NCBI GenBank assembly: GCA_020444265.1
Contig: JAHLLH010000008.1
Coordinates: 122,945 to 183,656, forward strand
Source of the DNA: a bacterium
GTDB taxonomy: Bacteria > Electryoneota > Electryoneia > Electryoneales > Electryoneaceae
Length of the DNA: 60,712 nt
Direction of reading: 5' to 3'
The position numbers and the translations under genes were made by a program. Each line of letters opens with the position of its first letter. Within the stretch, counting starts at the first letter, position 1. The notes below the pieces were generated by a model. That model saw nothing but the letters and a program-made list of their open reading frames with translations, did not search any database and was not told the origin of the DNA. This document shows positions 14,030 through 57,203 of the stretch, one piece after another.

Positions 14030-14185
14030 TGTCATCCTCAGCGCCCATGCCCGTGTCAACGGGCACATGCGAAGCATCCGGGCGCGTCGGGGATCCCCTT
14101 CCTCTCGCACCGCCTCGGGGGATGCCCGACGCCCCCAAACGAAAGACCCTGCCGATTGTCATCGGCATGGGGGCTGGGCATGACA
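14030..14185. repeat. SR-C structured repeat, copy C1
   Basis: A 156-bp composite palindrome with ends TGTCATCCTCAGC and GCTGGGCATGACA. Inner arms are GTCGGGGATCCCC and GGGGATGCCCGAC around a CTCTCGCACCGCC centre. Stem 1 pairs GCGCCC with GGGCGC and encloses a GCCCGTG/CGGGC hairpin; stem 2 pairs GCCCCC with GGGGGC and encloses GCCGAT/ATCGGC. It lies between glnD and the NlpC/P60 gene and ends 27 bases before that gene. Confidence 0.9.
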
Positions 14186-14211
14186 CGTTATCAAGGCGCT
14201 CTGTAACAAGT

Positions 14212-14808
14212 GTGGTGAAACCCGGCCAACGCAAGGGCCGGGCCACCCGTTTGCTGCTGATTGTGCTCCTAAGCGCCTTCCTCATTGGCTGTGCGGGGTT
14301 GAAGCCGAACCCGAAGTACAATCGCGACCGTCCGGACGGCAAACCGACTCAATCGAGTGGAAGCCGACGAGGCAAAGCGGCTCCGAAGCAGGAGACGAAA
14401 ACATCCACTCCTCGCACTCAGGCGCCTCGCGGTGCGATTGGTGGCGATGCGCTGGACCGTGAAGTGGCACGATGGTGGGGTACACCCTACGTACTCGGCG
14501 GCGGCAAGCTGCAGGTCGGGGTCGATTGCAGCGCCTATGTGCAGTCGGCGATGCGCGCCGCCTATGGAATCCACCTGCCTCGCACGACCAACGAGCAATA
14601 CCGCATGGGCCGTCAGGTGGACAGACGGTCCCTTCGTCGCGGCGACCTCATTTTCTTCAACACCTCCGGCACAGGTGTCAGCCATGTCGGCATCTACCTT
14701 GGCGCCAACAAATTCACCCACGCCTCCAATTCCGATGGTGTCACCATCAACGATCTCGGCGAGAAGTACTACCGCAAGCGCTACCTCGGGGCGAGGCGGG
14801 TGAAGTAA
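14212..14808 (+). CDS. NlpC/P60-family lipoprotein, probable murein endopeptidase
   Basis: A 198-residue lipoprotein cysteine peptidase, probably cutting peptidoglycan cross-links like Spr/MepS. From GTG 14212 (or GTG 14215) the n-region KPGQRKGRATR precedes LLLIVLLSAFLIGC, a lipobox with Cys near residue 25. A Ser/Thr/Pro-rich linker follows, then NlpC/P60 with the catalytic triad Cys106 (VDCSAYVQ), His158 (SHVGIYLG) and His170 (FTHAS). The longer open frame to 13843 only translates repeat C1 and is rejected. The first dozen codons coincide with a second palindromic repeat (F2). The ribosome site is weak, so the exact start is uncertain. Confidence 0.85.
   Translation: MVKPGQRKGRATRLLLIVLLSAFLIGCAGLKPNPKYNRDRPDGKPTQSSGSRRGKAAPKQETKTSTPRTQAPRGAIGGDALDREVARWWGTPYVLGGGKLQVGVDCSAYVQSAMRAAYGIHLPRTTNEQYRMGRQVDRRSLRRGDLIFFNTSGTGVSHVGIYLGANKFTHASNSDGVTINDLGEKYYRKRYLGARRVK
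14215..14249. repeat. SR-D/F hairpin repeat F2, inside the NlpC/P60 reading frame
   Basis: GAAACCCGGCC, a short loop, GGCCGGG and then CCACCC match intergenic repeat F3 (15072), but here the sequence encodes the basic start of the lipoprotein signal peptide (VKPGQRKGRATR). Confidence 0.65.
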
Positions 14809-14813
14809 GTCTT

Positions 14814-14860
14814 TCCAGTGGCCCGGCTGCCCCGTCAGCCGGGTTTTACATTTCAGCACC
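14814..14860. repeat. SR-D repeat D1
   Basis: The hairpin CCCGGCTG/CAGCCGGG around a CCCCGT loop, bounded by AGTGGC on the left and ACATTTCAGCACC on the right. It follows the NlpC/P60 stop by a few bases and has TTTT after the stem, so it could also terminate that gene. Confidence 0.8.
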
Positions 14861-14876
14861 CTCGCCTTTTACTACC

Positions 14877-15032
14877 TGTCATCCCCAGCGCCCATGCCCG
14901 TGTCAATGGGCACATGCGAAGCATCCGGGCGCGTCGGGGATCCCCGTCCTATCGCAACGCCCCCGGGGATGCCCGACGGCCCCGACTGTGACACCCTGCC
15001 GATTGGCATCGGCATGGGGCCTGGGCATGACA
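14877..15032. repeat. SR-C structured repeat, copy C2
   Basis: Ends TGTCATCCCCAGC and CTGGGCATGACA. Stem 1 is GCGCCC/GGGCGC, as in C1. Stem 2 differs: GGCCCC/GGGGCC, with inner GCCGAT/ATCGGC. The centre is TATCGCAACGCC. Same orientation as C1. Confidence 0.9.
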
Positions 15033-15071
15033 GCTGAGGTCGAGGTTGTAAGGTGTAGGTCGAACGGGGAT

Positions 15072-15110
15072 GAAACCCGGCCAACGGAGTGGTTGGGCCA
15101 CCCTTTCAGG
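15072..15110. repeat. SR-D/F hairpin repeat F3
   Basis: GAAACCCGGCCAAC, a GGAGTG loop, GTTGGGCCACCC and TTTCAGGG: the intergenic relative of the sequence that forms the start of the NlpC/P60 gene. Confidence 0.6.
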
Positions 15111-15128
15111 GCACGACGGGTGAAGTAG

Positions 15129-15235
15129 GTCATTGCGAGGAACAATGTGACGAAGCAACCCCCGTCCACGAGGCACGATTCTGCCTAATGGAGGCGGGAT
15201 TGATTCGTTAGTGCTTCGCACCGCCTCGAAATGAC
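15129..15235. repeat. SR-E repeat E1 (GTCATTGCGAGG type)
   Basis: A 107-bp element bounded by GTCATTGCGAGG and its near-inverse CCTCGAAATGAC, containing the GACGAAGCAA box and internal partial hairpins (CGTGCCTCG-like). Elements of this GCGAGG...GACGAAGCAA type are known from many unrelated bacteria. Confidence 0.75.
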
Positions 15236-15269
15236 TTGTTGTTCACCTCTTACTCGACTCCCTTCTTAA

Positions 15270-15322
15270 CGATATATCGCTTGACTTCCGAATCGTCGTT
15301 TTCTTACTCTAACGATATATCG
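15270..15322 (+). promoter_or_regulatory. padR promoter flanked by two CGATATATCG operators
   Basis: Two perfect CGATATATCG palindromes (15270-15279 and 15313-15322, centres 43 bp apart) bracket a promoter-like TTGACT (15281-15286), an 18-base spacer and TACTCT (15305-15310). The first palindrome abuts the -35 box and the second covers the expected transcription start. This is what autorepression by the PadR protein encoded 90 bases downstream would need. Confidence 0.7.
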
Positions 15323-15409
15323 AAACGATAGTCTGTTTCGACAGGTCGATAGAAAACGAGAGGGACCGGATGTTCGACCATCAATGGTCCCCAGAAGAAG
15401 GAGATAGAG

Positions 15410-15988
15410 ATGCATCATTTTCATCATCATGATCCCTGCGGCCATAGCCGTTTCCGCCAGTACCACGGTCATCATGGACATTTCGGCAAAATGCCGCCTT
15501 GGTTCGGACGTGAGATGTTCGGCGGCCACCGTGCAGAACGCGGCGATGTCCGTTACATGATCCTCGATGCCGTCAAGGATACCCCGGCGCACGGCTACCA
15601 GGTGATTCAGACGATCAAGGAGAAGAGCGGGGGCCGTTACCAGCCCAGCCCCGGAGCGATCTACCCGACCCTCCAGATGCTTACCGAAGAAGGGCTGCTC
15701 GAGGCGAAGCCGGAAGGCTCGAAGACGGTTTATTCGATCACCGATGCGGGCCGTGAAGCGCTCGAAGAAAATGCCGACGAGGTCGAGGATGCGTATGACC
15801 GTCTCGGCTTCGACGCCAACTGGAGCGACCTCGATTTCTCGCGGATCAAGCCACTGGTGAAACGTCTCGGACGTGCTGTGAAATACGCCGCGCGAAATCG
15901 TGTTCTGAACCAGGAGGCGGTCAACAAGGTGACCGACATCCTCGAGGAAGCGGTGGACAGCATCGAGAAGCTGCTGAAGCGGAGGTAA
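15410..15988 (+). CDS. PadR-family regulator with His-rich N-terminus
   Basis: A 192-residue winged-helix repressor. The first 26 residues hold 10 His plus Cys10 (MHHFHHHDPCGHS, then HGHHGHFG), an obvious potential metal-binding tail. The PadR wHTH follows (about 45-120): AERGDVRYMILDAVKDTPAHGYQVIQTI, then PSPGAIYPTLQMLTEEGLLE and VYSITDAGREAL. The C-terminal half forms the dimerisation helices. AAGGAG lies 6 bases before ATG 15410. It sits in a two-gene unit with the methyltransferase 3 bases downstream, behind the palindrome-flanked promoter. The effector is unknown; metal sensing is a guess from the His tail. Confidence 0.93.
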   Translation: MHHFHHHDPCGHSRFRQYHGHHGHFGKMPPWFGREMFGGHRAERGDVRYMILDAVKDTPAHGYQVIQTIKEKSGGRYQPSPGAIYPTLQMLTEEGLLEAKPEGSKTVYSITDAGREALEENADEVEDAYDRLGFDANWSDLDFSRIKPLVKRLGRAVKYAARNRVLNQEAVNKVTDILEEAVDSIEKLLKRR

Positions 15989-15990
15989 GA

Positions 15991-16629
15991 ATGAGTGGTC
16001 TGGGGACACTGACGCTGGTTCATGACGATCCAATGGTCCAGCAGGACAACGACCATGTGATGCCGTGGTGGATGGGCTACCTCTTGATCAACCCGTTGCG
16101 TCGCCTGAGCGATCCACCCGAGCTGATTGTCGGACCCTACATCAAACCAGGGAACACCGTTCTCGATATCGGGTGCGCGATGGGTTATTTCACGCTTCCC
16201 ATGGCGAAGATGGTTGGTCAGGAGGGGCGGGTCATCGCTACTGACATCCAACCGGAGATGCTGGTCCGTCTCCAGAAACGGGTTCAGCGCGCAAAGCTCG
16301 GAAATCGGATTGATCTGCGCCGTTCCTACGACCTCTCCCTCGGCCTTGCTGATCTCCCCGGCCAGGCGGATTTCGCCCTGGCATTTGCCGTTCTGCACGA
16401 AGCAGTCAGCAAGCAGGCGATGCTCGAGCAGATTTATGCGACTCTCCGCCCCGGTGGACGGCTGCTGATCGTCGAACCACCTTCCAAGGTTAACGTCAGC
16501 AACTGGGCGAAGACAGAGGAGACGGCGTTCCGTGCCGGGTTCATCCTGGAAGAGCACCCCTCGATCCACGGACGAATCGACCGTTCAATGCTGTTGTCGA
16601 AACCTGCGCAATCGGGCAAGCGCGCTTAG
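15991..16629 (+). CDS. Class I SAM-dependent methyltransferase
   Basis: A 212-residue methyltransferase. Motif I is VLDIGCAMGYFTLPMAKMVG (about residues 57-76), followed by VIATDIQPEML (motif II acidic residue) and ADFALAFAVLHEA, LRPGGRLLIVEPPSKV (motifs IV-VI). The N-terminal WWMGYLLINPLRRLSDPPELI segment resembles enzymes of the UbiE/ArsM-like group. Only two bases separate it from padR, so expression follows that regulator. The substrate is unknown; a membrane lipid, quinone or small toxic compound are all possible. Confidence 0.88.
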   Translation: MSGLGTLTLVHDDPMVQQDNDHVMPWWMGYLLINPLRRLSDPPELIVGPYIKPGNTVLDIGCAMGYFTLPMAKMVGQEGRVIATDIQPEMLVRLQKRVQRAKLGNRIDLRRSYDLSLGLADLPGQADFALAFAVLHEAVSKQAMLEQIYATLRPGGRLLIVEPPSKVNVSNWAKTEETAFRAGFILEEHPSIHGRIDRSMLLSKPAQSGKRA

Positions 16630-16650
16630 ACTAAGCTAGGAAGGTGCACG

Positions 16651-16698
16651 TTCCAGTGGCCCGGCTGCCTCGTCAGCCGGGCTTTGCATTTCAGCACC
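16651..16698. repeat. SR-D repeat D2
   Basis: CCCGGCTG, CCTCGT, CAGCCGGG hairpin with flanks CCAGTGGC and GCATTTCAGCACC; close to D1. Lies after the methyltransferase gene. Confidence 0.8.
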
Positions 16699-16714
16699 CA
16701 TGCCTACATCTAAT

Positions 16715-16875
16715 TGTCATCCCCAGCACGCAACAGGGTGAGAACCCTGTCGTGCGCATCGCGCACCCGCGTGCGTCGGGGATCCCCTTCCTCTCGCAAC
16801 GCCCCCCGGGGATGCCCGACGGCCCCGACTGCGACACCCTGCCGATTGGCATCGGCATGGGGCCTGGGCATGACA
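16715..16875. repeat. SR-C structured repeat, copy C3
   Basis: Ends TGTCATCCCCAGC and CTGGGCATGACA. Stem 1 is GCACGC/GCGTGC with inner hairpins ACAGGGT/ACCCTGT and GCGC/GCGC; stem 2 is GGCCCC/GGGGCC. The centre is CTCGCAACGCC. Stem 1 is different from C1 and C2 on both sides. Confidence 0.9.
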
Positions 16876-16925
16876 TGTGGTGACTGAGAGGGGTTCGTGT
16901 CCAGGTTCATGGCGATGACATCTCT

Positions 16926-19116
<2,191 letters not shown>

Positions 19117-19119
19117 TGT

Positions 19120-19145
19120 TGTGTCAGATCCTCAGATCTGACACA
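19120..19145. repeat. SR-A hairpin A1 (GTGTCAGATC type)
   Basis: TGTGTCAGATC, CTCA loop, GATCTGACACA: a perfect 11-bp stem 4 bases after the ligA stop. Identical or reversed copies occur at 24016 and 44214. It may serve as the ligA terminator. Confidence 0.85.
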
Positions 19146-19171
19146 TGATTCGTGCCATTGGCTCGATTGTT

Positions 19172-19203
19172 TGTCAGGTCTCCGCTTCGTTAATGGCCTG
19201 ACA
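19172..19203. repeat. SR-A long-loop hairpin A2
   Basis: TGTCAGG and CCTGACA enclose a loop with TCTCCGCTTCGTTAATG. Close loop variants occur at 23935 (reversed), 44164 and 44267. Confidence 0.65.
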
Positions 19204-19270
19204 AAACGTATGCCGTCGGCTAGGTAGTGGACCTCGGATTGGACGGTCGTATTTCTGATAGGCAGCAGAG

Positions 19271-19300
19271 GCTGGATTCCGGGTCAAGCCCGGAATGACA
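19271..19300. repeat. SR-B hairpin B1
   Basis: TTCCGGG, TCAAG, CCCGGAA followed by TGACA. The TCCGGG-TCAAG-CCCGGA-TGACA motif is a widespread bacterial intergenic palindrome. The rest of 19117-19542 holds only repeats A1, A2, B1 and E2 and the efp leader. Confidence 0.7.
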
Positions 19301-19330
19301 AAATTGCTAAAATTTTGCCAACTTGGTGGG

Positions 19331-19361
19331 GTTGCTTTGTCGCTTCGGTCCTCGCAATAAC
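19331..19361. repeat. SR-E partial repeat E2
   Basis: GTTGCTTTGTCGCTTCGG, TCCTCGCAATAAC: the reverse complement of the ATTGCGAGGA...GCGACGAAGCAAC end of SR-E. Confidence 0.65.
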
Positions 19362-19542
19362 TTGTTCATGCAAAAGTCACCCCTCGTAATCCTGTAACTC
19401 TGTAATCCAACCGCTTGATTTTCCCTAACGTATCACAGAGAATCGCCTGTCATCCCCGGTTGCTCTTGGCAGAGTGGGGTCTTATCTTGATGGGCTGAAC
19501 TGATTCTGATTGGAACCAACCAAACCTGCAAGGAATACGGAG

Positions 19543-20109
19543 ATGGCCTCGACGGCTGATTTTCGCAACGGCATGGTGATCAAGTACAACCACAGCTTGG
19601 TGACCATCGTAGAATTTCAACATGTGAAGCCCGGCAAGGGCGGTGCATTTGTGCGTACGAAGCTGAAGGACGTGATCAGCGGCAAGGTGCTGGACAATAC
19701 GTTCCGTGCCGGTGAAAAGGTGGAAGAAATTCGCCTTGAAGCGCGCCAGATGCAGTACCTCTACCAGGAAGGCGATGGTTTTGTCTTCATGGACCACGAG
19801 ACTTATGAACAGATCTCGATGGGTGCCGACCTGGTCAGTCCTGACATCGCCAAGTACATGAAGGAAGGCGTGGACTTCAAGGTCCTGTTTACCGAGGGCA
19901 GCCCCCTCGTGCTCGAACTGCCCTTCTTCCTCGAGCTGGAGATTGTCGAGACGGAACCGGGCGACAAGGGCGACCGTGTCAGTGCCGCGACCAAGCCGGC
20001 CAAGCTCGAAACCGGTGCCGTTGTGCAGGTGCCCCTCTTCGTCAGCCAAGGCGAAGTGGTCAAGGTGGATACCCGCACCGATGAATACATCGAGCGGGTC
20101 AAGGGTTAA
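19543..20109 (+). CDS. efp: Translation elongation factor P
   Basis: Relieves ribosome stalling at polyproline. 188 residues in three beta domains: N-terminal ADFRNGMVIKYNHSLVTIVE, the KPGKGGAFVRTKLK loop with the exposed Lys32 at the tip, the OB domains with the signature FFLELEIVETEPGDKGD, and the C-terminal VKVDTRTDEYIERVKG. Start ATG 19543 is chosen over a TTG 11 codons earlier; AAGGA lies about 8 bases upstream. Lys32 is the position modified by EpmA in some bacteria. The neighbours accB-accC form the common efp-accB-accC order. Confidence 0.97.
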   Translation: MASTADFRNGMVIKYNHSLVTIVEFQHVKPGKGGAFVRTKLKDVISGKVLDNTFRAGEKVEEIRLEARQMQYLYQEGDGFVFMDHETYEQISMGADLVSPDIAKYMKEGVDFKVLFTEGSPLVLELPFFLELEIVETEPGDKGDRVSAATKPAKLETGAVVQVPLFVSQGEVVKVDTRTDEYIERVKG

Positions 20110-20175
20110 GACGTGAACCGGGACTGAGGTCCTGTTACCAAAGCTTACTCTCCATTCTGGGGAGGGGGAGACCGG

Positions 20176-20664
20176 ATGAATTTTACCGAGGTGCGCAAGC
20201 TGGTCAAGTTGCTCGAGTCCAGCGATCTCAACGAACTTGAATTCGAACGGGACGGTTCTCGTCTCCATCTGAAGAAGGCCGAACCGTTGCCCGCACCGGT
20301 GCAGACCGTGCTCGCCGCACCGCCCGCGATGCAGCAGGCGGCCCCGGCAGGTGCGCCATCCGCTCACACTGCAGCGCCAACCGCCGCAGGATCGGATGCC
20401 CCGGCTGCGAGTTCGAAGAAGTTCCACGAATTGAAGTCGCCGATGGTTGGCACCTTCTACCGCGCCCCGGCTCCGGATGCTGATCCCTATGTCCAAGTGG
20501 GCGACAAGGTGAAGCAGGGCCAGACGCTCTGTATCGTGGAAGCGATGAAGCTGATGAACGAGATCGAAGCGGACGCCACCGGGACGGTGGTGGAGATCCT
20601 GGTCGAGAATGGCGAGCCGGTCGAGTTCGGCGCGGCGCTGTTCCTCATCGATCCACAGGGCTGA
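20176..20664 (+). CDS. accB: Biotin carboxyl carrier protein of acetyl-CoA carboxylase
   Basis: Carries CO2 on biotin between biotin carboxylase and carboxyltransferase in the first step of fatty-acid synthesis. 162 residues: N-terminal helix [20 protein letters not shown], a long Ala/Pro-rich linker (about 40-85), and the biotinyl domain with [12 protein letters not shown], where Lys125 is biotinylated. GGGGGAG precedes ATG 20176. accC begins 2 bases after the stop. Confidence 0.97.
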
Positions 20665-20666
20665 TC

Positions 20667-22022
<1,356 letters not shown>

Positions 22023-22036
22023 TTCTGGAGGCCAGG

Positions 22037-22417
22037 ATGGCGAACGTCCCGCAGGAGTTGAAGTACACAGAGGATCATGAGTGGGTGCGTGTGGAGGGTG
22101 ACACCGCCACATTTGGCATCACCGACTACGCGCAGGGGGAACTGGGCGATGTCGTCTTCCTCGAGCTGCCCGATGAGGGCGATGATGTAAAGCAGCACGA
22201 GACATTTGGTTCAATCGAAGCGGTAAAGACCGTGGCTGATCTTTTTGCCCCGCTCAGCGGCGAGGTTCTTGCTGTCAACGGCAGCCTGGAAGATGAGCCG
22301 GAGACGATCAACAAGGATCCGTACAACGCCGGTTGGCTGGTCAAGATCAAGATGTCCAAGACGGATGAGCTGGACGGTTTGATGGACGCTGAAGCTTACA
22401 ACCAGCACATTTCCTAG
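22037..22417 (+). CDS. gcvH: Glycine cleavage system H protein
   Basis: Lipoyl carrier that shuttles the aminomethyl group between P, T and L proteins. 126 residues from ATG 22037 (MANVPQELKYTEDHEW), with GGAGG 5 bases upstream; the longer frame overlaps accC. The lipoylated Lys64 lies in FGSIEAVKTVADLF, and the C-terminal PYNAGWLVKIK is typical. It follows accC by 14 bases, so biotin and lipoyl carrier genes are likely co-transcribed. Confidence 0.97.
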   Translation: MANVPQELKYTEDHEWVRVEGDTATFGITDYAQGELGDVVFLELPDEGDDVKQHETFGSIEAVKTVADLFAPLSGEVLAVNGSLEDEPETINKDPYNAGWLVKIKMSKTDELDGLMDAEAYNQHIS

Positions 22418-22430
22418 GAGTTTCCGTAGC

Positions 22431-23777: not shown

Positions 23778-23801
23778 TCTCGATCTACTGGATGACTATT
23801 G

Positions 23802-23832
23802 CTGGGCAGGGAGTGATCCTTGCCCAGTTTTT
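23802..23832 (+). terminator. Intrinsic terminator after gcvPA
   Basis: CTGGGCA (23802-23808) pairs with TGCCCAG (23821-23827), followed by TTTTTG. It ends the efp-accBC-gcvH-gcvPA region. Confidence 0.85.
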
Positions 23833-23840
23833 GTTAGTGT

Positions 23841-23928
23841 GTGTCACCCCGGACTCGATCCGGGGTCAAGCCGAGGAAGCTCTGGCTGACGAAGGATGCT
23901 TGATCCCGGGTCAAGCCCGGGATGACAC
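23841..23928. repeat. SR-B composite repeat B2
   Basis: An 88-bp element beginning GTGTCACCCCGGACTCGATC and ending CAAGCCCGGGATGACAC, so the ends are inverted repeats. Each end holds its own CCGG palindrome (ACTCGATCCGGGG; ATCCCGGG-TCAAG-CCCGGGAT). This starts a solid block of repeats filling 23.84-24.31 kb. Confidence 0.75.
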
Positions 23929-23934
23929 AGCGTT

Positions 23935-23992
23935 CCGTCAGGTCTTTAGCGTAGCGGAGACCTGACGGTGTAGCACGGGCATCCTGCCCGTG
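23935..23992. repeat. SR-A hairpin A3 plus CACGGGC hairpin
   Basis: CCGTCAGGTC...GACCTGACGG (23935-23968) with long loop TTTAGCGTAGCGGA, the reverse of the A2/A16 loop. A second small hairpin, CACGGGC-ATCCT-GCCCGTG, follows at 23974-23992. Confidence 0.75.
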
Positions 23993-24015
23993 CATCGCAC
24001 CTCCGGCGCGAATAG

Positions 24016-24041
24016 TGTGTCAGATCTGAGGATCTGACACA
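24016..24041. repeat. SR-A hairpin A4
   Basis: TGTGTCAGATC, TGAG loop, GATCTGACACA; the exact reverse-orientation copy of A1. Preceded by GGCGCGAATA, a companion motif also found before A14 and A16. Confidence 0.8.
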
Positions 24042-24078
24042 ACGAGGAAAATCTGACACTCCAGGCGATTGGTCGGTT

Positions 24079-24133
24079 CCGTCAGGCCCCCGAACCTGAC
24101 GGATTTTCAGTCAGACGTGGGCGTCTGACTGAA
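24079..24133. repeat. SR-A tandem hairpin pair A5/A6
   Basis: CCGTCAGG, CCCCCGAA, CCTGACGG (24079-24102), then a perfect 12-bp stem TTCAGTCAGACG, TGGG, CGTCTGACTGAA (24106-24133), followed by CGAA. The same pair, partly decayed, lies at 46230. Confidence 0.85.
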
Positions 24134-24144: not shown

Positions 24145-24306
24145 TGTCATGCCCAGGCCCCATGCCGGTGAGAACCGGCAAGGGTGTTGGTGTTGGGGCC
24201 GTCGGGCATCCCCCTTGATTGCGCAGCCTGGGGGGGGATCCCCGACGCACACCGGTTCGCTGCGCGAACGAGCTGGCTGGCACCAGCTTGTGTGCTGGGG
24301 ATGACA
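24145..24306. repeat. SR-C structured repeat, copy C4 (inverted)
   Basis: Ends TGTCATGCCCAGG and GCTGGGGATGACA, so it is reversed relative to C1-C3. Stems: GGCCCC/GGGGCC with inner GCCGGT/ACCGGC, and GCACAC/GTGTGC with inner AGCTGG/CCAGCT and GTTCGC/GCGAAC. The centre GATTGCGCAGCC replaces the usual CTATCGCAACGCC. From 24307 to 24471 I see no gene or clear structure before slipin. Confidence 0.9.
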
Positions 24307-39604: not shown

Positions 39605-39612
39605 AGGGAGAA

Positions 39613-39777
39613 GTCATCCCCAGCGCGATTGGGTGCTTTAGCACCCTTGTGTCCGCAGGACACCACCAGCGTGTCGGGGATTCCCTTGCTATCGCACCGC
39701 TTCGGGGGATCCCCGACGCCCACGGGTTCCCTGCGGTCACGACACCGTTGGCACGGTGTTGTGGGCTGGGGATGACA
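39613..39777. repeat. SR-C structured repeat, copy C5
   Basis: Ends GTCATCCCCAGC and GCTGGGGATGACA. Stem 1 is weakly paired (CAGCGCG with CAGCGTG flanks) but encloses perfect GGGTGC/GCACCC and GTGTCC/GGACAC hairpins; stem 2 is GCCCAC/GTGGGC with inner ACACCGT/ACGGTGT. The centre is CTATCGCACCGC. It fills the der-priA gap. Confidence 0.9.
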
Positions 39778-47008: not shown

Positions 47009-47184
47009 GCAACTCCATCCGAGGTTCTGCATCAAAGGTAGAAACGGGGGTGAAGTCGAAGCAAACCCTTTGCGACCGATGAGCATCGGTGAACCGCTCG
47101 CTGGAAGACGAACTGTCTCGTTGCTTGAACCCTGCGCAGCGTCTATTTTAACATGACCCCGCCAGTCCCACGAAGGAGAGAAGA

Positions 47185-50151: not shown

Positions 50152-50191
50152 ACGGACTGGACCGACACGTCAGTCTCTGCTTTAAAACATA

Positions 50192-50215
50192 CAGGGCGCC
50201 CGACGGGGCGCCCTG
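50192..50215 (+). terminator. Hairpin after the metalloprotease gene
   Basis: CAGGGCGCCC, GACG, GGGCGCCCTG: a 10-bp perfect stem 40 bases after the stop. The T-run is poor (ATTTG); it may serve the convergent gene as well. Confidence 0.75.
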
Positions 50216-50245
50216 ATTTGTCTCATTCCCGGCTGTCATCGCGCA

Positions 50246-50455
50246 TCAGTGATTATACCGGTGAATCTTCTCGACGCTGCCGTCATGACGCAGCAGCACG
50301 AGACGGCTGGGGGCGTATCGACGTGCAATGGCACGTGCGATGGAGGTGAGGGTCTGTTTGTCCGGGTGACGGCTGAGGGGTTTCCGTCGCTCATGCAACA
50401 GGCAAATCCAATCGTCCGCGTTGCCCGGCTGGAGGAAGAGGGTGGTGATGGGCAT
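50246..50455 (-). CDS. Small DUF2188-like protein
   Basis: 69 residues from ATG 50455 with GGGAG 10 bases upstream. The sequence runs DDWICLLHERRKPLSRHPDK, LTSIARAIARRYAPSRLVLL and RHDGSVEKIHRYNH, echoing DUF2188 (Ala/Arg helix followed by a strand with HDG.I..). A longer frame to 50590 is open. Very short, and the family match is from memory. It could be the tail of the CBS gene's unit, 146 bases downstream of it; that gap holds a TGTGGATCGATCCACA palindrome. Confidence 0.5.
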   Translation of the reverse strand: MPITTLFLQPGNADDWICLLHERRKPLSRHPDKQTLTSIARAIARRYAPSRLVLLRHDGSVEKIHRYNH

Positions 50456-50601
50456 ATCTGTCCGGCTCCCTTGTTGCTGTCCCAAAGGAAGCCTACGAAA
50501 GAAGTTTCGCCACTTCTCGCCAGATATCGCTATCGCTAGAAAAAGCCGCACCCTAAATGGCACGGCCTGACTTCGTGTGGATCGATCCACATGGCCACAT
50601 C

Positions 50602-51036
50602 TTACGTCATTTCACCCGCGATGTAGTTCTTCAGGAAGTGGATCTCGTGCTCCTGCTGGTCGGCGAGTGCTTTGACGACATCGCCGATGGAGACGATTCC
50701 GACCAAGAGGCCATCCGACATGATGGGCAGGTGACGGATTCGTTTCTCGGTCATGGTCGCCATCGTCGATTCGACCGTATCGCCCGGGAGACCAATCACA
50801 ATGTCGCTGGTCATGTGGGGGCCGACGGTGGCGGTATTGAGGTCCACGCCACGGTCTGCGGTCAGCCTCAGGTTGTCGCGCTCGGTGAACATGCCGAGCA
50901 CCTTGGACCCGTCGGCGATGATGACGGCACCGACTTTATTTGTCAGCATGGTATCGACAACTTCACGGAGGCCGGTCTCGGGTGGTACAGTGATGACCTT
51001 GGTCCCTTTGCGGGAAAGTATGTCTCGGATCAACAT
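50602..51036 (-). CDS. Tandem CBS domain protein
   Basis: 144 residues from ATG 51036, with AAAGGAGG 7 bases upstream; the longer frame is rejected. Two CBS domains: VITVPPETGLREVVDTMLTN with VGAVIIADGSKVLGMFTERD, and DIVIGLPGDTVESTMATMTE with IRHLPIMSDGLLVGIVSIGD. Such stand-alone pairs bind adenine nucleotides (AMP, ATP, SAM) and act as energy sensors for partner enzymes. Divergent from fabL across a 269-bp gap with two AATTCG palindromes. Confidence 0.93.
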   Translation of the reverse strand: MLIRDILSRKGTKVITVPPETGLREVVDTMLTNKVGAVIIADGSKVLGMFTERDNLRLTADRGVDLNTATVGPHMTSDIVIGLPGDTVESTMATMTEKRIRHLPIMSDGLLVGIVSIGDVVKALADQQEHEIHFLKNYIAGEMT

Positions 51037-51062
51037 GGGCCAGCCCTCCTTTGGTAGGTAAT

Positions 51063-51099
51063 AATTCGTTCGAATTGTTCTTCCACAATAATTCGAATT
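51063..51099. promoter_or_regulatory. Palindrome pair upstream of the CBS gene
   Basis: AATTCGTTCGAATT (51063-51076) and AATTCGAATT (51090-51099), each preceded by ATA, centres 25 bp apart, in an AT-rich stretch 27-63 bases before the CBS start. Candidate operator sites in the CBS/fabL divergent region. Confidence 0.45.
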
Positions 51100-51305
51100 T
51101 CGCAACAACTCAAGAGGAACTTTCCCATTTCCAATAGTTTTGCTTTTCACAATCTTTCGTAATTTTGGTCTCGTAAGGTTAGGAGGGACGAAGTTTTCTC
51201 TTGCCAAACGCTGAGGTCCGCCTCTACTTTTCGCGATGCGACGGCGAGGGGAGAGTCAGCAGCGTCGTACGCTTGAGACTACATATGATGCGGAACGGAG
51301 TGATC

Positions 51306-52058
51306 ATGTCGGACTTGAAGGGAAAAGTTGCGCTGGTGACGGGTGGGTCCCGTGGGATCGGACGCGCGATCGCGTTGAAGCTTGCCGATCAAGGGGTCAA
51401 CATCGCCATCAATTTCATGCGCAACCGTAAGGCGGCCCAGGCTACGGTTGAAGAGCTCGAGGCAAAGGGGATCAAAGCGAAGGCCTACCGAGCCAACGTT
51501 GGCAAGGAAGATGAGCTGCACGAGATGTTCGAGCAGTTCGAGGCCGATTTTGGCAAGATCGACATCCTTATCTCCAACGCTGCCTCCGGTGTCCTCAAGC
51601 CGGCGATGGAACTGACCAGACGTCACTGGGCGTGGACGATGGACATCAACGCCGCCACCCTGCTTCACCTTGTCCAGCATAGCGTGCCGCTTATGAACGG
51701 CAATGGCAAAGTGGTTGCGATTTCGTCGCTTGGCTCGGTTCGTGCGATCCCCGACTACACGGCAGTCGGCGCGTCCAAAGCCGCACTCGAATCGCTCGTC
51801 CGACACCTTTCCGTCGAACTCGCCCCGAAGGGGATCAATGTCAACACGCTCTCCGCAGGCGTGGTCGACACCGAAGCGCTGAAGCATTTCCCGGAACGGG
51901 ACCAGATCCTCGAGAACAGCCGTGTCCGTACCCCGGCAGGACGTCTTGTCACCCCCGACGATGTCGCCGATGTCGCCCTTTTCATGGTGACCGATGCCGC
52001 GAAGATGATCCACGGAGCAACGATTGTGGTTGATGGCGGCTATTCGGTGGTCGCCTGA
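51306..52058 (+). CDS. fabL: Enoyl-ACP reductase III (FabL-type SDR)
   Basis: A 250-residue short-chain dehydrogenase from ATG 51306 (GGAG upstream). The NADPH loop is VTGGSRGIGRAIALKLADQG. The segment NAASGVLKPAMELTRRHWAW then TMDIN, the active site ISSLGSVRAIPDYTAVGASK (Ser and Tyr-x3-Lys) and the tail VDTEALKHFPERDQILENSR, TPAGRLVTPDDVADV closely match Bacillus FabL as I recall it. It reduces enoyl-ACP in fatty-acid elongation with NADPH. It complements accB-accC elsewhere in the window. A 3-oxoacyl-ACP reductase is the less likely alternative. Confidence 0.85.
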   Translation: MSDLKGKVALVTGGSRGIGRAIALKLADQGVNIAINFMRNRKAAQATVEELEAKGIKAKAYRANVGKEDELHEMFEQFEADFGKIDILISNAASGVLKPAMELTRRHWAWTMDINAATLLHLVQHSVPLMNGNGKVVAISSLGSVRAIPDYTAVGASKAALESLVRHLSVELAPKGINVNTLSAGVVDTEALKHFPERDQILENSRVRTPAGRLVTPDDVADVALFMVTDAAKMIHGATIVVDGGYSVVA

Positions 52059-52085
52059 TCCATTTGTGAATTCGCTATAGACTGG

Positions 52086-52110
52086 CCCCGGCAGCTTGCT
52101 GTCGGGGTTT
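52086..52110 (+). terminator. Intrinsic terminator after fabL
   Basis: CCCCGGCA, GCTTGC, TGTCGGGG then TTTACTG. From here to 52630 there is no gene, only repeats. Confidence 0.75.
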
Positions 52111-52143
52111 ACTGTTGTTGGAGTGCACCCTGGTGCGCCCGAG

Positions 52144-52216
52144 GTGTCACCCCGGACTTGATCCGGGGTCCAGCCTCAACTGTTCAAGATGGAAACGTAA
52201 GCTGGATTCGGGGCAA
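52144..52216. repeat. SR-B composite repeat B3
   Basis: GTGTCACCCCGGACTTGATC then CGGGGTC at the left, and a mutated GCTGGATTCGGGGCAAGACC at the right end; same plan as B2. Confidence 0.65.
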
Positions 52217-52229
52217 GACCGCTTCCCGT

Positions 52230-52286
52230 TTCGGCAGGTCTCCCGACCTGCCGAATTTTTCAGTCAGGTCGGGAGACCTGACTGAA
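52230..52286. repeat. SR-A tandem hairpin pair A12/A13
   Basis: TTCGGCAGGTC, TCCC, GACCTGCCGAA (52230-52255) and TTCAGTCAGGTC, GGGA, GACCTGACTGAA (52259-52286), then CGG. Third copy of the pair around the 32894 gene, with compensated outer pairs. Confidence 0.9.
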
Positions 52287-52313
52287 CGGGTTGAACGTAC
52301 CAGGTGGGGTTAC

Positions 52314-52357
52314 GTCATTGCGAGGACCGTAGCGAAGTGAAGGGACGTGGCAATCTG
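52314..52357. repeat. SR-E partial repeat E3
   Basis: GTCATTGCGAGGACCGTAGC, GAAGTGAAGG...GCAATCTG: an SR-E end with an altered GACGAAGCAATC box. Confidence 0.6.
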
Positions 52358-52470
52358 CCCTTGATACGGTGTCGCAGATACCGTTCCGCCTCCTCGCGTA
52401 CCTGACTGAGCGGGTGTTCTTCATGGTGCGGACAAGGATTTAACAGGGGTACTGTCCGGGACTTCTTCGA

Positions 52471-52500
52471 CTGGATCCCGGGTCAAGCCCGGGATGACAC
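52471..52500. repeat. SR-B hairpin B4
   Basis: ATCCCGGG, TCAAG, CCCGGGAT then GACAC, as at the right end of B2. Confidence 0.75.
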
Positions 52501-52515
52501 ATGCATGAACTGGGA

Positions 52516-52555
52516 GTGCTGATATGCACGCTTGGGTGGCGGGGCACCCAAGCCA
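52516..52555. repeat. SR-D repeat D5
   Basis: GTGCTGATATGCA, CTTGGGTG, GCGGGG, CACCCAAG, CCA: almost identical to D3. Confidence 0.8.
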
Positions 52556-52698
52556 TGTAAATGCCCTCCCTCGTCTCGGGGGGGGAGGGATTCGGGGCCG
52601 GTTCGTGAAACTCGACGGCCCTATATTGAGTGCAATCGACGCCCGGTGGGTGCAGGGGTTCCTGCACAGTCCCCGGCAAACCTGACAATGAGGCCTTC

Positions 52699-53529
52699 GT
52701 GTTTCCGGTTTTGATTGATCTCGGCCGTTTCAAACTGCACAGCTACGGCCTGATGATGTTTATCGCCTTCCTGCTGGGTATCTGGATCGCGCATCGTCGC
52801 GGGAAAAAAGCGGGACTCGGTGAATCCACCGTCCTCGACCTCTCCACCCTGATCATCCTCTTTGGTCTGCTCGGCGGACGGTTGCTGTATGTCCTGACCC
52901 ACCTGTCCGAGTTCAAGGGACGGTGGCTGGATGTCATCAGCCCGATTCAGTCGAACGGTCAGATCGGGTTTGCGGGGCTGGTGCTTCTGGGCGGGGTAAT
53001 CCTCAGCTTTGTTGCGGTGGCCGTTTATGTCTACCGGAAAAAGCTGAACATCCTGACCATCCTCGATGTTTTCGCGCCCTCGACTGCGCTTGGTATTGCG
53101 ATCGGTCGATTGGGCTGTTACCTCAATGGCTGCTGTTTCGGGTTGCCGACCGAGTTACCCTGGGGAGTCGTCTTCCCGCATGGCAGCCCGGCGGGATACA
53201 TCTTCCCGGGAGTGCATGTCCACCCGACCCAGATCTACGCATTTCTCTATGGAGTTTCACTTTTCCTGTTGCTTCTCTGGGCGGAAAAGAAGTTTACTCT
53301 GTTTCCGGGGTTTACCTGGTCGCTCTTCCTGACCGGCTATGGTACCCTCCGTTTTCTCAACGAATTGATCCGTTGGCATGAAGAAAGTTTGCACTTCATC
53401 AATTTCGCCAACGGCGGCTTTGTAACGGTCAGCCAGACCATCTCTCTCCTGATGATCCTCACGGGAGTGGTTCTTTTCCTGCGTTCGAGACGAGTTCATC
53501 TCGCTGCCGGTGCGGACGCGGGCAAGTAA
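52699..53529 (+). CDS. lgt: Prolipoprotein diacylglyceryl transferase
   Basis: Inner-membrane enzyme adding diacylglycerol to lipobox Cys, here probably of the NlpC/P60 protein and others. 276 residues from GTG 52699 (GAGG 5 bases upstream; MFPVLIDLGRFKLHSYGLMM). Seven hydrophobic segments. Family motifs: GRLLYVLTHL, GLVLLGGVI, the Lgt signature ALGIAIGRLGCYLNGCCFGL and HPTQIYAFLYG. A CTATATT box lies at 52621. ctpA follows after 14 bases. Confidence 0.95.
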   Translation: MFPVLIDLGRFKLHSYGLMMFIAFLLGIWIAHRRGKKAGLGESTVLDLSTLIILFGLLGGRLLYVLTHLSEFKGRWLDVISPIQSNGQIGFAGLVLLGGVILSFVAVAVYVYRKKLNILTILDVFAPSTALGIAIGRLGCYLNGCCFGLPTELPWGVVFPHGSPAGYIFPGVHVHPTQIYAFLYGVSLFLLLLWAEKKFTLFPGFTWSLFLTGYGTLRFLNELIRWHEESLHFINFANGGFVTVSQTISLLMILTGVVLFLRSRRVHLAAGADAGK

Positions 53530-53543
53530 GCACGGAGTACACC

Positions 53544-55286
53544 ATGACGTTTCGTTCCCTTCGCCCCCTCATTCTGGCCGGGCTTCTTCTGCTACCGGTT
53601 CTGCCACTCCAGGCCCAGTCTGGAGGTTCTGAACCGCAAGACCTGCGTCAGCAGCAGCTCACCCAGGATGAGATGCGTGCCCAGGCGGAGATGATTCGCG
53701 CCATCCGCGAAAATGTCGGCCTGTTTGGCAACATCTACCGGCAGATCAGCATGCGCTATGTCGATCCGATCAACCCCGAAACCTTCATGAAGGCCGGGAT
53801 TGAAGGGATGCTGGCGACACTCGATCCCTATACCGAGTACATGGAACCGGAGAACGCGGATGATTTGCAGATCATGTCGCGTGGTCGCTACGGCGGCGTT
53901 GGGCTGCAGATCGGTACACGTGGTGCGGACCGTGTTCTGACTGTCATCAGCCCGATCGAGGGTACCCCTGCCTGGCGCTTGGGCATTCGTGCCGGGGACC
54001 AGATTGTCAAAATCGCGGGCGAATCGACCAAGGGTTTCACCACCTCGGATGCGGCGGAACGTCTCCGCGGCGTGCCGAACACCCCTGTTGAAGTGACAAT
54101 TCATCGTCACGGGGTTGACGATCCGCTGAAGTACACGATTATTCGTGAAGAAATTGCGGTGAAAGATGTAAGCTATGCCGGGTTTGTCGAACCGGGCATC
54201 GCCTATGTTCGTTTGACACGATTCAGCCGTGCTGCGGGCGAGGAAGTACGTGCCGCCATTCTCGACCTGGCCAGCCAGGAGGAGTTGAAAGGCTTGATCT
54301 TCGACCTTCGTTCCAACCCGGGCGGCCTGCTGCCCGAGGCGATTGCGGTGGCGGAGAATTTCCTGCAAAATGGTGACCCAATTGTCTCGACCAAGGGGCG
54401 TAGCGACGAAATGTTCGCTCAGTACTTCTCGCAAAATGAACCATCATTGGCGCCGAATGTGCCGCTGGTCGTGCTGATTAACCAGGGTAGTGCTTCGGCG
54501 AGTGAGATTGTATCGGGTGCGGTACAGGACCTGGATCGTGGGCTGGTCGTCGGCATGCCCTCCTTCGGCAAGGGGCTGGTGCAGTCTGTGGTGCCCTTCA
54601 ATGATGGTACCGCGCTCCGGATGACCACTGCCAAGTACTACACCCCTTCAGGCCGTCTGATCCAGAAGGTGGATTACTTCTCGGACAACGAGTCCCTGCT
54701 ATCGGTCCAGCCGGAAGAGGAGGATAGCCTCTTCCACACCAAGAAGGGCCGTGAGGTGACAGCGCATGGCGGAATCCATCCGGATGTGGAAGTCGAGATG
54801 GACGAGGTCGGTGAGTTGACCCTCTCGCTCTGGCGTCAGGATCACTTCTTTGATTTCGCCAATGCCTACCGAAGTGAGCATCCCGAGGTGGACTCCTGGG
54901 AAGTGGATGACGATGTCTACGACCAATTCCTCACCTACCTCGATTCAACGGGCTACGAATACGAGAGCGACATGGATTCTCGCCTGGCCAAACTGCGTGA
55001 AGAGGCGGAGGAGATGGGCTACAGCGAGGAGTTCCTGAAGGAGATTGAGGACCTCGAGGTGATTGCGGACAAGCGGAAAGAGGAGGAGTACATTTCCGAG
55101 CGCGAGGAGCTCAAGCAGCGGATAAAACTCGAGCTTGCCTCCGTTATGGCAGGCAATGCGGGTCGAGTGCAGGCCTCCATCAGCTTCGATCCTCAAATCC
55201 AAAAAGCAGTGGAAGTGTTAAGCAGTGACGAGGAATATGCCTCCGTACTCAACAGCACGACCACCGCGCAGGCTGATATTGAATAG
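53544..55286 (+). CDS. C-terminal processing peptidase (S41 family, CtpA-like)
   Basis: A 580-residue periplasmic serine protease. Signal peptide MTFRSLRPLILAGLLLLPVL to LQAQ. N-terminal helical segment with NIYRQISMRYVDPINPETF; PDZ domain (about 115-195: GVGLQIGTRGADRVLTVISP, WRLGIRAGDQIVKIAGE). S41 core with FDLRSNPGGLLPEAI, catalytic Ser near 318 in NQGSASASEIVSGAV and Lys near 343 in MPSFGKGLVQS. A long charged helical C-terminal extension (about 430-580, LRQEAEEMG-like, EEEYISEREELKQRI) is longer than in minimal CtpA. Probably in one unit with lgt; acts in envelope protein quality control. Confidence 0.93.
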   Translation: MTFRSLRPLILAGLLLLPVLPLQAQSGGSEPQDLRQQQLTQDEMRAQAEMIRAIRENVGLFGNIYRQISMRYVDPINPETFMKAGIEGMLATLDPYTEYMEPENADDLQIMSRGRYGGVGLQIGTRGADRVLTVISPIEGTPAWRLGIRAGDQIVKIAGESTKGFTTSDAAERLRGVPNTPVEVTIHRHGVDDPLKYTIIREEIAVKDVSYAGFVEPGIAYVRLTRFSRAAGEEVRAAILDLASQEELKGLIFDLRSNPGGLLPEAIAVAENFLQNGDPIVSTKGRSDEMFAQYFSQNEPSLAPNVPLVVLINQGSASASEIVSGAVQDLDRGLVVGMPSFGKGLVQSVVPFNDGTALRMTTAKYYTPSGRLIQKVDYFSDNESLLSVQPEEEDSLFHTKKGREVTAHGGIHPDVEVEMDEVGELTLSLWRQDHFFDFANAYRSEHPEVDSWEVDDDVYDQFLTYLDSTGYEYESDMDSRLAKLREEAEEMGYSEEFLKEIEDLEVIADKRKEEEYISEREELKQRIKLELASVMAGNAGRVQASISFDPQIQKAVEVLSSDEEYASVLNSTTTAQADIE

Positions 55287-55316
55287 CGAAAATTCCAAGA
55301 AACGATAGTTGCATCC

Positions 55317-55365
55317 AACCCCGGCGCCGGATCACGGTAGCCGGGGTTGTCGCTCCCTGTTTTTT
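55317..55365 (+). terminator. Terminator after ctpA
   Basis: AACCCCGGC (55317-55325) with GCCGGGGTT (55340-55348), then six T at 55360-55365 a dozen bases later. Confidence 0.7.
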
Positions 55366-55458
55366 CAAGTGTGCGTAAGGTCACAGCGGATTCAACGATC
55401 ACGATCTACTTTATCATCAACAACTCTTCTGTCGGCCGGCCCCGGTGGAAGGTGTTGG

Positions 55459-55501
55459 CCCGTCGCAGGCGTAACCTCCTCCACGTCGCGACGGGTTTTT
55501 T
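55459..55501 (+). terminator. Second strong terminator; possible small-RNA 3' end
   Basis: CCCGTCGC (55459-55466) with GCGACGGG (55488-55495) followed by six T. It lies 110 bases past the ctpA terminator with no gene between, so it may end a short untranslated RNA starting near 55.37-55.42 kb, or be a leader structure for the next gene. Confidence 0.6.
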
Positions 55502-55531
55502 CATGTCCTTAAATCTCACCCGCGAGCCCGC

Positions 55532-55561
55532 TTGCAGGCTCAAGAGGACGCGCCCTATATT
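55532..55561 (+). promoter_or_regulatory. Candidate promoter of the PseG-like gene
   Basis: TTGCAG (55532-55537), 18 bases, TATATT (55556-55561), then AGGAGG at 55579 before ATG 55591. Confidence 0.5.
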
Positions 55562-55590
55562 GGCCCCGGATCATACGCAGGAGGTAAGGG

Positions 55591-56745
55591 ATGGGGGAGT
55601 ACAACGCCTGGATCAAAGCCACTCGTGAAGAGGGCTATGGCACATTGCACCTGGCCCGTGCAGTTGCACTGGCTGAAGCGGCTGTGCGTGAAGGGCTCGA
55701 CAGTGTTACAGTCATTACCGATCAGGCCGGTGCCGAATTGATTGAGGCCCACTTGCCGAAGAAGGCGAGTGTCCTGATCTGGAACGAGAGCCTGACCCCG
55801 CCGCAGGAAGCGGCTCAGTTGGTTGAACTGCTGAAGCCGATGGTGCCGAAGCGGGTCGATGAACGTTACCCGCGTCCCCTGCTCTATCTCGTGGGCAACA
55901 GCTATGTCGCCGAGTACCAGAAGATGCTCTGGAAGTCCGGGGTGGAAGTGGTGCTGGTATGTGATGAGGCAGATCGTTCCAGCGCGGATTGGTTTGTCAT
56001 CGGAAAGCCTTATGGCGGTGGATTGGGAGTCACGTCGGACACCGGGTATACCCGTTTTCTTCGTGGGTCACAGTATGCTCCCCTTCGTTTCGAGGCGGTG
56101 CGTGGCATTTTGAAGCAGCATGCGCACAAGACGGTTGCTTCTGATTTCTGCATTGCGACGGAGAATCTGGATACGAAGAGCTGGCTGCCGCTGATCGCCA
56201 AGGCAATCAAGTCGGTCGATCTGCCGGAGCATGTTGAAGCATGGACTCCGACCCTGACTATCCTTCCCGGGCCGGATTGTGCGTCGGACGAGGAGTTGAA
56301 AGGTCTGGCTGCCGAAAACGGCTTGAAGGTCACCGTCTCGAAGGATCGGTTCAGCCATGTTGCGTCGCTGCTGAACACGGATGTGCTTTTCTCCGCCGAC
56401 AATATGACACTTCATGAAGCGCTCGGATTGGGTGTGGTACGGATGGCGCTGCCACGAGCCGGAGCAGAGCAGGACCTGATGCTCGAGCATATGGTCGAGC
56501 GTGAAGTCTCCCAACCGGTCCCTGATCCCAACGCCTCGGATGCGCTCGAGCAGCTGACCACCAAGCTGACCCGTCTCTGCTTCGACCCAGCGTACCGTCG
56601 CGGCAACGGCCGCATTGGCCAGTACCTCTGCGATGGTATGGGTGCGGTGCGTGTGATCCGTCAGACGGCGCTCAAGGTCTACGCGGTTCCACAGAACCTG
56701 GTCCGTTTCTTTGAAGCTGCTGATCCGATGATTGAGAAACTCTGA
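55591..56745 (+). CDS. PseG/GT-B-fold-like protein
   Basis: A 384-residue soluble protein with an AGGAGG ribosome site 6 bases upstream. The start EEGYGTLHLARAVALAEAAV resembles the GxGHxxR.LALA loop of PseG (nucleotide-sugar hydrolase in pseudaminic acid synthesis) and MurG-like enzymes, but Thr replaces the usual His. The C-terminal domain has LNTDVLFSADNMTLHEALGL, reminiscent of the PseG ADLVISAGGxTxxEAL motif. The middle (RPLLYLVGNSYVAEYQKMLW) is a Rossmann-type domain. It could bind nucleotide-sugars or have lost activity; no other sugar genes are nearby. Confidence 0.6.
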   Translation: MGEYNAWIKATREEGYGTLHLARAVALAEAAVREGLDSVTVITDQAGAELIEAHLPKKASVLIWNESLTPPQEAAQLVELLKPMVPKRVDERYPRPLLYLVGNSYVAEYQKMLWKSGVEVVLVCDEADRSSADWFVIGKPYGGGLGVTSDTGYTRFLRGSQYAPLRFEAVRGILKQHAHKTVASDFCIATENLDTKSWLPLIAKAIKSVDLPEHVEAWTPTLTILPGPDCASDEELKGLAAENGLKVTVSKDRFSHVASLLNTDVLFSADNMTLHEALGLGVVRMALPRAGAEQDLMLEHMVEREVSQPVPDPNASDALEQLTTKLTRLCFDPAYRRGNGRIGQYLCDGMGAVRVIRQTALKVYAVPQNLVRFFEAADPMIEKL

Positions 56746-56770
56746 TCGATTGTGGTTATTGTGAACCTGG

Positions 56771-56803
56771 CCCGGGCAATCTTGTTGCCCGGGTTTCTTT
56801 TGT
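56771..56803 (+). terminator. Intrinsic terminator after the PseG-like gene
   Basis: CCCGGGCAA, TCTTG, TTGCCCGGG then TTTCTTTTGTTT. The following 56.8-57.4 kb holds only repeats E4 and C6 and fragments. Confidence 0.9.
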
Positions 56804-56855
56804 TTGGCAGGCAGGTGTGGGCTTCTAGCAGAAGGCAGCGGTGGAGTTGAACTGG

Positions 56856-56996
56856 TGTCGTTGCGAGGAGCGAAGCGACGAAGCAATCTCTCCGCACGTA
56901 TTTGGTTTCCCTGCGCGCTTTGCGCGCACCTATGAGCTGGTGAGAGATTCGAGACTGCTTCGTTGTCCGGCAGTTGCCGGACGCCTCGCAGCGACA
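56856..56996. repeat. SR-E composite repeat E4
   Basis: A 141-bp element with ends TGTCGTTGCGAGG and CCTCGCAGCGACA. Inside: GCGACGAAGCAATCTCTC matched by GAGAGATTCGAGACTGCTTC then GTTGTC; hairpins GCGCGC/GCGCGC and CCGGCA/TGCCGG. The layout parallels SR-C: conserved ends, swappable inner hairpins. Confidence 0.75.
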
Positions 56997-57040
56997 CCGG
57001 GTTGCATCACCACTCGTGGGCACCTCGCAGCGACACGACC

Positions 57041-57203
57041 TGTCATCCCCAGCCCACATGTCCGGCCACTGCCGGACCGGGTGCTGGTGTTGTGGGTGTC
57101 GGAGATCCCCGTGGGGGAGCGACGCCTTGGGGGATTCCCGACGCGCTTGTGGCAGCCTTTGGCTGCAAGCCTACTGATGCAGGCTATCGCGTTGAGAATG
57201 ACA
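57041..57203. repeat. SR-C structured repeat, copy C6
   Basis: Ends TGTCATCCCCAGC and TTGAGAATGACA. Stem 1 is CCCACA/TGTGGG with inner TCCGGCC..CTGCCGGA; stem 2 is ACGCG/CGCGT with inner GGCAGCC/GGCTGC and AGCCT/AGGCT. Inner arms are GTCGGAGATCCCC and GGGGGATTCCCGAC. A partial C-like piece follows at 57226-57275. Confidence 0.85.

Follow-up and report, generated by a model that had tools for sequence, protein, structure and literature searches.

A repeat of inverted, branched half-elements

The stretch analyzed here is a 60,712-nucleotide window of the Electryoneaceae assembly GCA_020444265.1 (contig JAHLLH010000008.1, positions 122,945 to 183,656) and it carries six copies of an intergenic repeat of ~160 bp, termed SR-C. 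The six copies had been described in an original prediction, and all of them were recovered by a covariance model, which refined their positions in the window to 14030-14185, 14877-15032, 16715-16875, 24145-24306, 39612-39777, and 57041-57203. The element was found to be an inverted pair of ~70-nt half-elements, and both halves of all six copies matched the model with E-values between 6e-21 and 5e-7.

Read 5′ to 3′ on its own strand, a half-element has the form TGTC-ATCCCC-A-stem1-[hairpin 2, hairpin 3]-stem1′-GTC-GGGGAT-CCCC. The TGTC tag, the ATCCCC/GGGGAT stem, the A/GTC internal loop, and the CCCC tail make up a constant foot, above which stands a branched apical module. The parts follow one another as a foot of 6 bp, an A, stem 1 of 6 bp, an A, hairpin 2, one base, hairpin 3, two bases, and stem 1′. 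Hairpin 2 is variable and has 7 bp and a four-base loop, mostly GNNA, while hairpin 3, also variable, has 6 bp and a three-base loop, mostly GNA. Three types of half were distinguished: A, which has hairpin 3; B, in which a G/T-rich strand stands instead; and G, the subfamily marked by GCGCGA. Hairpin 3 is present in most of the non-B halves, and its tandem G.A mismatches are conserved (GTGACC..GGGAAC in 33 of 99 non-B halves). The TGTC tag is nearly invariant across the halves and the CCCC tail is present in nearly all of them, and among 47 aligned halves of equal length the foot pair A5-T69 was formed in all 47 and T6-A68 in 41. Each half folds alone on its own TGTC strand, into either a three-way junction or a version without hairpin 3, and folding of the 12 window halves with DNA parameters gave z-scores from -1.0 to -5.5.

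The first copy consists of an A-type left half with a short hairpin 3 (14030-14098, + strand; 74.6 bits in cmsearch, fold z -3.4) and a B-type right half in which the G/T-rich strand replaces hairpin 3 (14118-14185, - strand; 59.3 bits, z -4.1). In copy 2, the A-type left half (14877-14945, +; 75.2 bits) has two differences from the left half of copy 1, and the B-type right half (14965-15032, -; 58.0 bits) has one difference from the right half of copy 3. Copy 3 has the full three-way junction in its A-type left half (16715-16787, +; 91.5 bits, z -5.5), together with a B-type right half (16808-16875, -; 58.8 bits). Copy 4 had been called inverted; in it the two end types have changed places, with a B-type half on the left (24145-24213, +; 56.8 bits) and an A-type half on the right (24234-24306, -; 92.9 bits). 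Copy 5 joins a left half of the G subfamily (39612-39685, +; 59.8 bits) to an A-type right half (39705-39777, -; 94.8 bits), and its stem 1, previously regarded as a weak case, is no accident, as the form GCGCGA...CCAGCGY is common to the whole subfamily. In copy 6, the B-type left half is decayed (57041-57110, +; 40.0 bits, z only -1.0) and the right half is a GCGATAG... variant (57130-57203, -; 54.6 bits). A degenerate seventh half, absent from the original list, adjoins this copy at 57231-57294 (-; 36.7 bits, E 3.8e-6).

Copy number and genomic placement

The covariance model, built from 23 halves, was used for a profile search of the 4.33-Mb genome, which is the source of most of the evidence given here. 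At least 143 halves were detected in the genome, where 150 candidates were scored, and at least 165 in the 62 stretches around copies, the 165 being made up of 69 inverted pairs and 27 unpaired halves, that is, 96 elements. The 13-mer TGTCATCCCCAGC, with at most one mismatch, occurred 138 times in the genome, compared with twice for its reversed control, and the repeat is thus not a product of chance; a chance origin was rejected on reversed-pattern, shuffle, and slide controls alike. The two halves of a pair are mostly separated by 18-23 or 34-38 bases, within a range of 18-90 bp. With gene positions taken from a simple codon-usage gene call, and therefore approximate, 93 of the 96 elements were intergenic and 66 lay between co-directional genes. 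A search with the Rfam covariance models at gathering score returned only a tRNA from the window and no match for the repeat.

The distribution over contigs was uneven, with 53 halves on C11, 23 on C6, and only 2 on the 782-kb C9. A local array of elements, with spacers of 88-89 bp and partly derived from tandem duplication, is present at C11:734933-737435 (stretch L138). A second short repeat, GGGGCACCCAAGCCAC / TGGCTTGGGTGCCCCGCCACCC, was observed just outside several elements, at 16951 in the window and in stretches L128, L133, L134, L140, and L148.

Covariation of the stems

The original prediction held that the paired stems of SR-C covary between copies, and named a stem 1 and a stem 2. 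The covariation was upheld and proved stronger than described, but the two stems are not separate: they are one stem 1, seen in the two halves of the inverted pair. The swapped hairpins said to be enclosed by these stems, of which no detail had been given, correspond to hairpins 2 and 3, which were found to covary too. Among the 47 halves, 93.9% of paired cells form standard pairs, and both partners vary in 18 of the 25 base pairs. Compensated cells numbered 221, against 60.9 when shuffled and 14-35 when the partner was slid by 1-3 bases, and the covariation passed the controls in the set of 23 halves as well.

Kinship among the copies was handled by matching nearest copies, which gave 19 independent pairs differing at 12 positions or fewer. 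These pairs contained 25 compensated double changes, against 0-2 in slid controls on the same pairs; of the one-sided changes, 6 left the pairing intact and 16 disrupted it. The covariation is therefore not explained by shared ancestry, and a phylogenetic artefact was rejected on this ground. Replacements of C-G by G-C and of A-T by C-G were seen, so that the changes are not limited to those that can pass through G.T. The halves of one pair are no more alike than random unlike halves (0.42 in both cases), so that each half's stems evolve independently of those of its partner. Uncorrelated stem sides, the outcome named beforehand as contrary to covariation, were thus not found within this one genome, and the proposal of selection for a folded form, whether DNA or RNA, is supported.

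The folding molecule

The loops of SR-C were found to be tied to one strand. The four-base loops of hairpin 2 had the form G..A in 90 of 134 cases and the complement motif, T..C, in a single case of the 134, while hairpin 3 carried C-GNA-G in 65 of 98. These frequencies were about equal whichever way the half is oriented to its neighboring genes: GNNA was seen in 31 of 49 sense and 31 of 51 antisense halves, and C-GNA-G in 23 of 32 and 23 of 36, respectively. In the independent pairs, the per-site rate of change was 0.50 for the inner loop bases against 0.15 for the outer G and A, a 3.3-fold difference. Mismatches pointed the same way. With a fixed frame, hairpin 2 showed 32 G.T against 5 A.C; over all stems, when related copies were collapsed and an unbiased parse was used, G.T outnumbered A.C by 40 to 21 events (p 0.01). 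This excess is moderate evidence for a folded DNA strand.

GNA and GNNA loops are known to form extraordinarily stable DNA mini-hairpins (PMC4686876), and the two commonest loop types of the element belong to exactly these two classes. The d(GCGAAGC)-type mini-hairpins described there are synthetic oligonucleotides, whereas the SR-C loops recur in a natural genomic repeat.

The original prediction left DNA and RNA as alternatives. It could be that the repeats act as RNA, as transcribed 3′ or intergenic structures that stabilize, process, or attenuate mRNA, in which case the RNA fold would be the selected form. The stems do covary as those of structured RNAs and fold well as RNA, the placement of most elements between co-directional genes would suit such a role, and repetitive extragenic palindromes (REPs) are known to act in mRNA (PMC3733652). 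However, the halves are inverted, so that one of them is on the wrong strand in any transcript, and yet sense and antisense halves show similar loop motifs and a similar excess of G.T. The tetraloop favored in RNA is GNRA, and only 15 of the 90 G..A loops of hairpin 2 fit it, the general form being GNNA. In addition, the repeat matches no Rfam family, and double transversions are among its base-pair changes, while G.U intermediates are few. An RNA function is thus considered unlikely, and the ambiguity between RNA and DNA tilts to single-stranded DNA, namely the strand that begins with TGTC.

The strand dependence bears equally on the idea that SR-C works as double-stranded DNA, as a chromosomal landmark or a cruciform to which a nucleoid protein, gyrase, or a repair factor binds, the pairing being maintained by cruciform extrusion. 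REP and BIME (bacterial interspersed mosaic element) binding platforms are high-copy, intergenic, and arranged in inverted pairs, and SR-C recalls them in each of these respects. A cruciform folds both strands, however, so that loop motifs and mismatches should be neutral with respect to strand, and they are not. Variable stems would also offer a sequence-specific binder little to read, and this role is judged very unlikely. Single-stranded DNA is probably the relevant form of SR-C, and covariation, the usual proof of RNA structure, seems in this case to reflect selection acting on a DNA strand that folds.

Exchange and pairing of halves

Many pairs of elements share one near-identical half but show no relationship in the other half or in the flanks. 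Copies 2 and 3 of the window match in their left flank, spacer, and right half, but their left halves are unrelated and differ at 22 positions, a pattern that gene conversion of one half would give. The part of the original prediction that invoked strand switching or gene conversion is therefore borne out as far as the exchange of whole halves between copies is concerned. Note, however, that swapping alone cannot create base-by-base compensation, and the compensated changes are left unexplained by gene conversion.

A related possibility is that no structure is selected at all, and that complementarity arises from mutation alone, by template switching in imperfect palindromes (quasi-palindrome correction) together with gene conversion. 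Such a process would account for the frequent double changes between near-identical copies with no need of G.T intermediates, and for the exchange of whole halves. Template switching should, on the other hand, erase irregularities, and two that are conserved here are the A/GTC internal loop and, in hairpin 3, the tandem G.A mismatches. Likewise, the loop G and A are kept against variable inner bases, and strand switching by itself leaves all of these conserved unpaired parts unexplained. Mutation alone also predicts equal numbers of G.T and A.C mismatches, at odds with the excess of G.T observed. On balance, an origin of the pairing in mutation alone appears distinctly unlikely.

The pairs were found to join unlike types. 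Homotypic combinations made up 8 of 64 pairs, where 24.2 were expected and none of 5000 shuffles gave so few, and the remaining 56 of 64 were heterotypic. No target duplication of 4 bp or more was detected in the 64 pairs, and matches of 2-3 bp were at about the level of chance. An insertion sequence or a miniature inverted-repeat transposable element with target duplication was rejected, as no direct repeats beyond chance level flank the copies. The base just outside the tag was C in 44 of the 64 and, on the other side, G in 43 of the 64, with most copies reading CTGTC.

Relationship to CGTC-tagged REPs

SR-C shares several features with the CGTC-tagged REPs (Di Nocera et al. 2013, PMC3733652): a CGTC/TGTC tag at one end, complementary AT as the first two stem pairs, a C-rich tail, an intergenic arrangement in inverted dimers, often of unlike units, and no transposase gene flanked by the repeats. 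Canonical CGTC REPs have a stem of 8-9 bp and a loop of 4-5 nt, whereas SR-C has a 6-bp foot, the A/GTC internal loop, and a branched, hypervariable, covarying module, and for this reason SR-C is a variant that falls outside CGTC REP families 1-4 as defined. The tail differs too, being CCCC in SR-C, mostly CCA in CGTC REPs, and CCAG in the canonical copies of the same genome.

These canonical members, of the form TGTC-ATCCCGGG-CTTGA-CCCGGGAT-CCAG, coexist with SR-C. A pattern search detected at least 42 of them in the genome, and 28 in the 62 stretches around copies, against none in the reversed control. Three short CGTC-type REPs were identified by pattern search in the window itself, all on the - strand, at 19274-19300 (TGTCATTCCGGGCTTGACCCGGAATCC), 23901-23927 (TGTCATCCCGGGCTTGACCCGGGATCA), and 52473-52499 (TGTCATCCCGGGCTTGACCCGGGATCC).

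No SR-C element turned up among 38 further genomes of the phylum, of which six belong to the same family, nor in plasmids, nor in viral contigs searched with a stem-core pattern. CGTC-like repeats were present in 28 of 39 genomes of the phylum, with up to 419 copies against near-zero controls, some of them with enlarged loops. A patterned scan of 85,000 genomes gave mostly chance matches and two kinds of true branched CGTC REPs, from Anaerolineae and Ignavibacteria. These branched forms, of ~70-116 nt with variable arms, occur in one Anaerolineae metagenome-assembled genome (MAG) and three Ignavibacteria MAGs, and several of them pair in dimers with a canonical 33-nt CGTC REP. SR-C is thus an expanded, branched relative of the CGTC-tagged REPs, a link that is strengthened by the canonical copies in its genome, the CGTC-like repeats in its phylum, and the branched forms in these MAGs.

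Repeats with unusual loops were dropped from the 2013 survey of CGTC REPs (PMC3733652), and a recent REP finder has a default loop ceiling of 11 nt (PMC12306157), so that branched forms would be missed. The CGTC REPs, whose mobility is without a known enzyme, are extended here to branched forms that loop length had excluded. A wider suggestion is offered tentatively: these repeats may belong to a widespread, undescribed class of mobile repeats, in at least three phyla, that is read by shape, with branched single-stranded DNA folds that persist as their letters drift freely, that carry DNA-type GNA and GNNA loops as caps in this genome, and that are served by a putative structure-reading transposase.

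Two genomes are worth recording. In G012, from another family of the same phylum, CGTC-type repeats carry a nested hairpin in the loop, the stem of which varies between copies (CCCCAGCGAAAGCCGGGG, CCCCTGCGAAAGCAGGGG). The Anaerolineae MAG fen_1063 (stretches L229-L258) contains branched CGTC repeats of 70-116 nt together with 33-nt canonical partners, and would be a good system for studying loop enlargement.

A proposed model for mobilization

Two known systems of mobile repeats can be set beside SR-C. The GTAG REPs and REPINs (REP doublets) associated with RAYTs (REP-associated tyrosine transposases), or TnpA-REP (PMC3116915, PMC8266576), are likewise non-autonomous and high in copy number: structured palindromes set in inverted pairs, which bear a tetranucleotide tag and stem irregularities and are recognized on one strand only. 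SR-C differs in its tag, TGTC rather than GTAG, in being much larger and branched, and in that no RAYT gene flanked by SR-C was found. TnpA-REP binds single-stranded REP and not its complement, makes use of the tag, requires irregularities in the stem (group 2), and cleaves at CT (PMC8266576). Subterminal hairpins that are single-stranded and contain unpaired bases are also found in IS200/IS605 elements and their non-autonomous derivatives, where the left end likewise differs from the right and there is no target duplication; SR-C, however, has no internal gene, consists of two full branched hairpins 18-90 bp apart, and does not conserve its stem letters.

By analogy with TnpA-REP, SR-C is probably a family of non-autonomous mobile repeats, built as inverted pairs of enlarged, branched REP-like hairpins and selected for the fold of the TGTC strand, presumably on behalf of an HUH/Y1-type transposase acting in trans. 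Selection would act on the folding of this strand whenever the DNA is single-stranded, leaving the stem letters nearly free as long as they pair. The strand-specific enzyme, if it resembles TnpA-REP, would read the foot and the overall fold and then cut, and the pair, rather than the single half, would be the unit that moves. The consensus C before TGTC supplies a CT at the left edge, although cleavage there is speculation. In this model, SR-C offers direct evidence from evolution that a REP-type repeat is maintained for its single-stranded fold, and it supplies well over 100 natural variants for testing what a REP-processing enzyme reads.

Several observations weigh against this interpretation. 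The G.T excess is significant only in hairpin 2 (15 vs 5) and overall, and not in stems 0, 1, and 3 separately, and about one-third of the hairpin 2 loops depart from GNNA. Neither an empty site nor a recent transposition event was seen. No mobilizing-enzyme gene flanked by SR-C was found, the three Y1 genes of the genome included, and most relatives that lack the element have as many Y1 genes or more.

The Y1 transposase genes of the genome were located at C10:120964, C1:212, and C2:142696, each with its own, different terminal palindromes. A RAYT acting in cis was rejected, as none of the three is flanked by SR-C and the Y1 counts of the relatives are unlinked to the presence of the repeat. 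The RAYT-like gene at C10:120964-121251 lies ~2 kb to the left of the window start (stretch L031, 1426-2082) and has on both sides a palindrome, TTATTAGTGACAGTTACTAATT..AATTAGTAACTGTCACTA, that is unrelated to SR-C.

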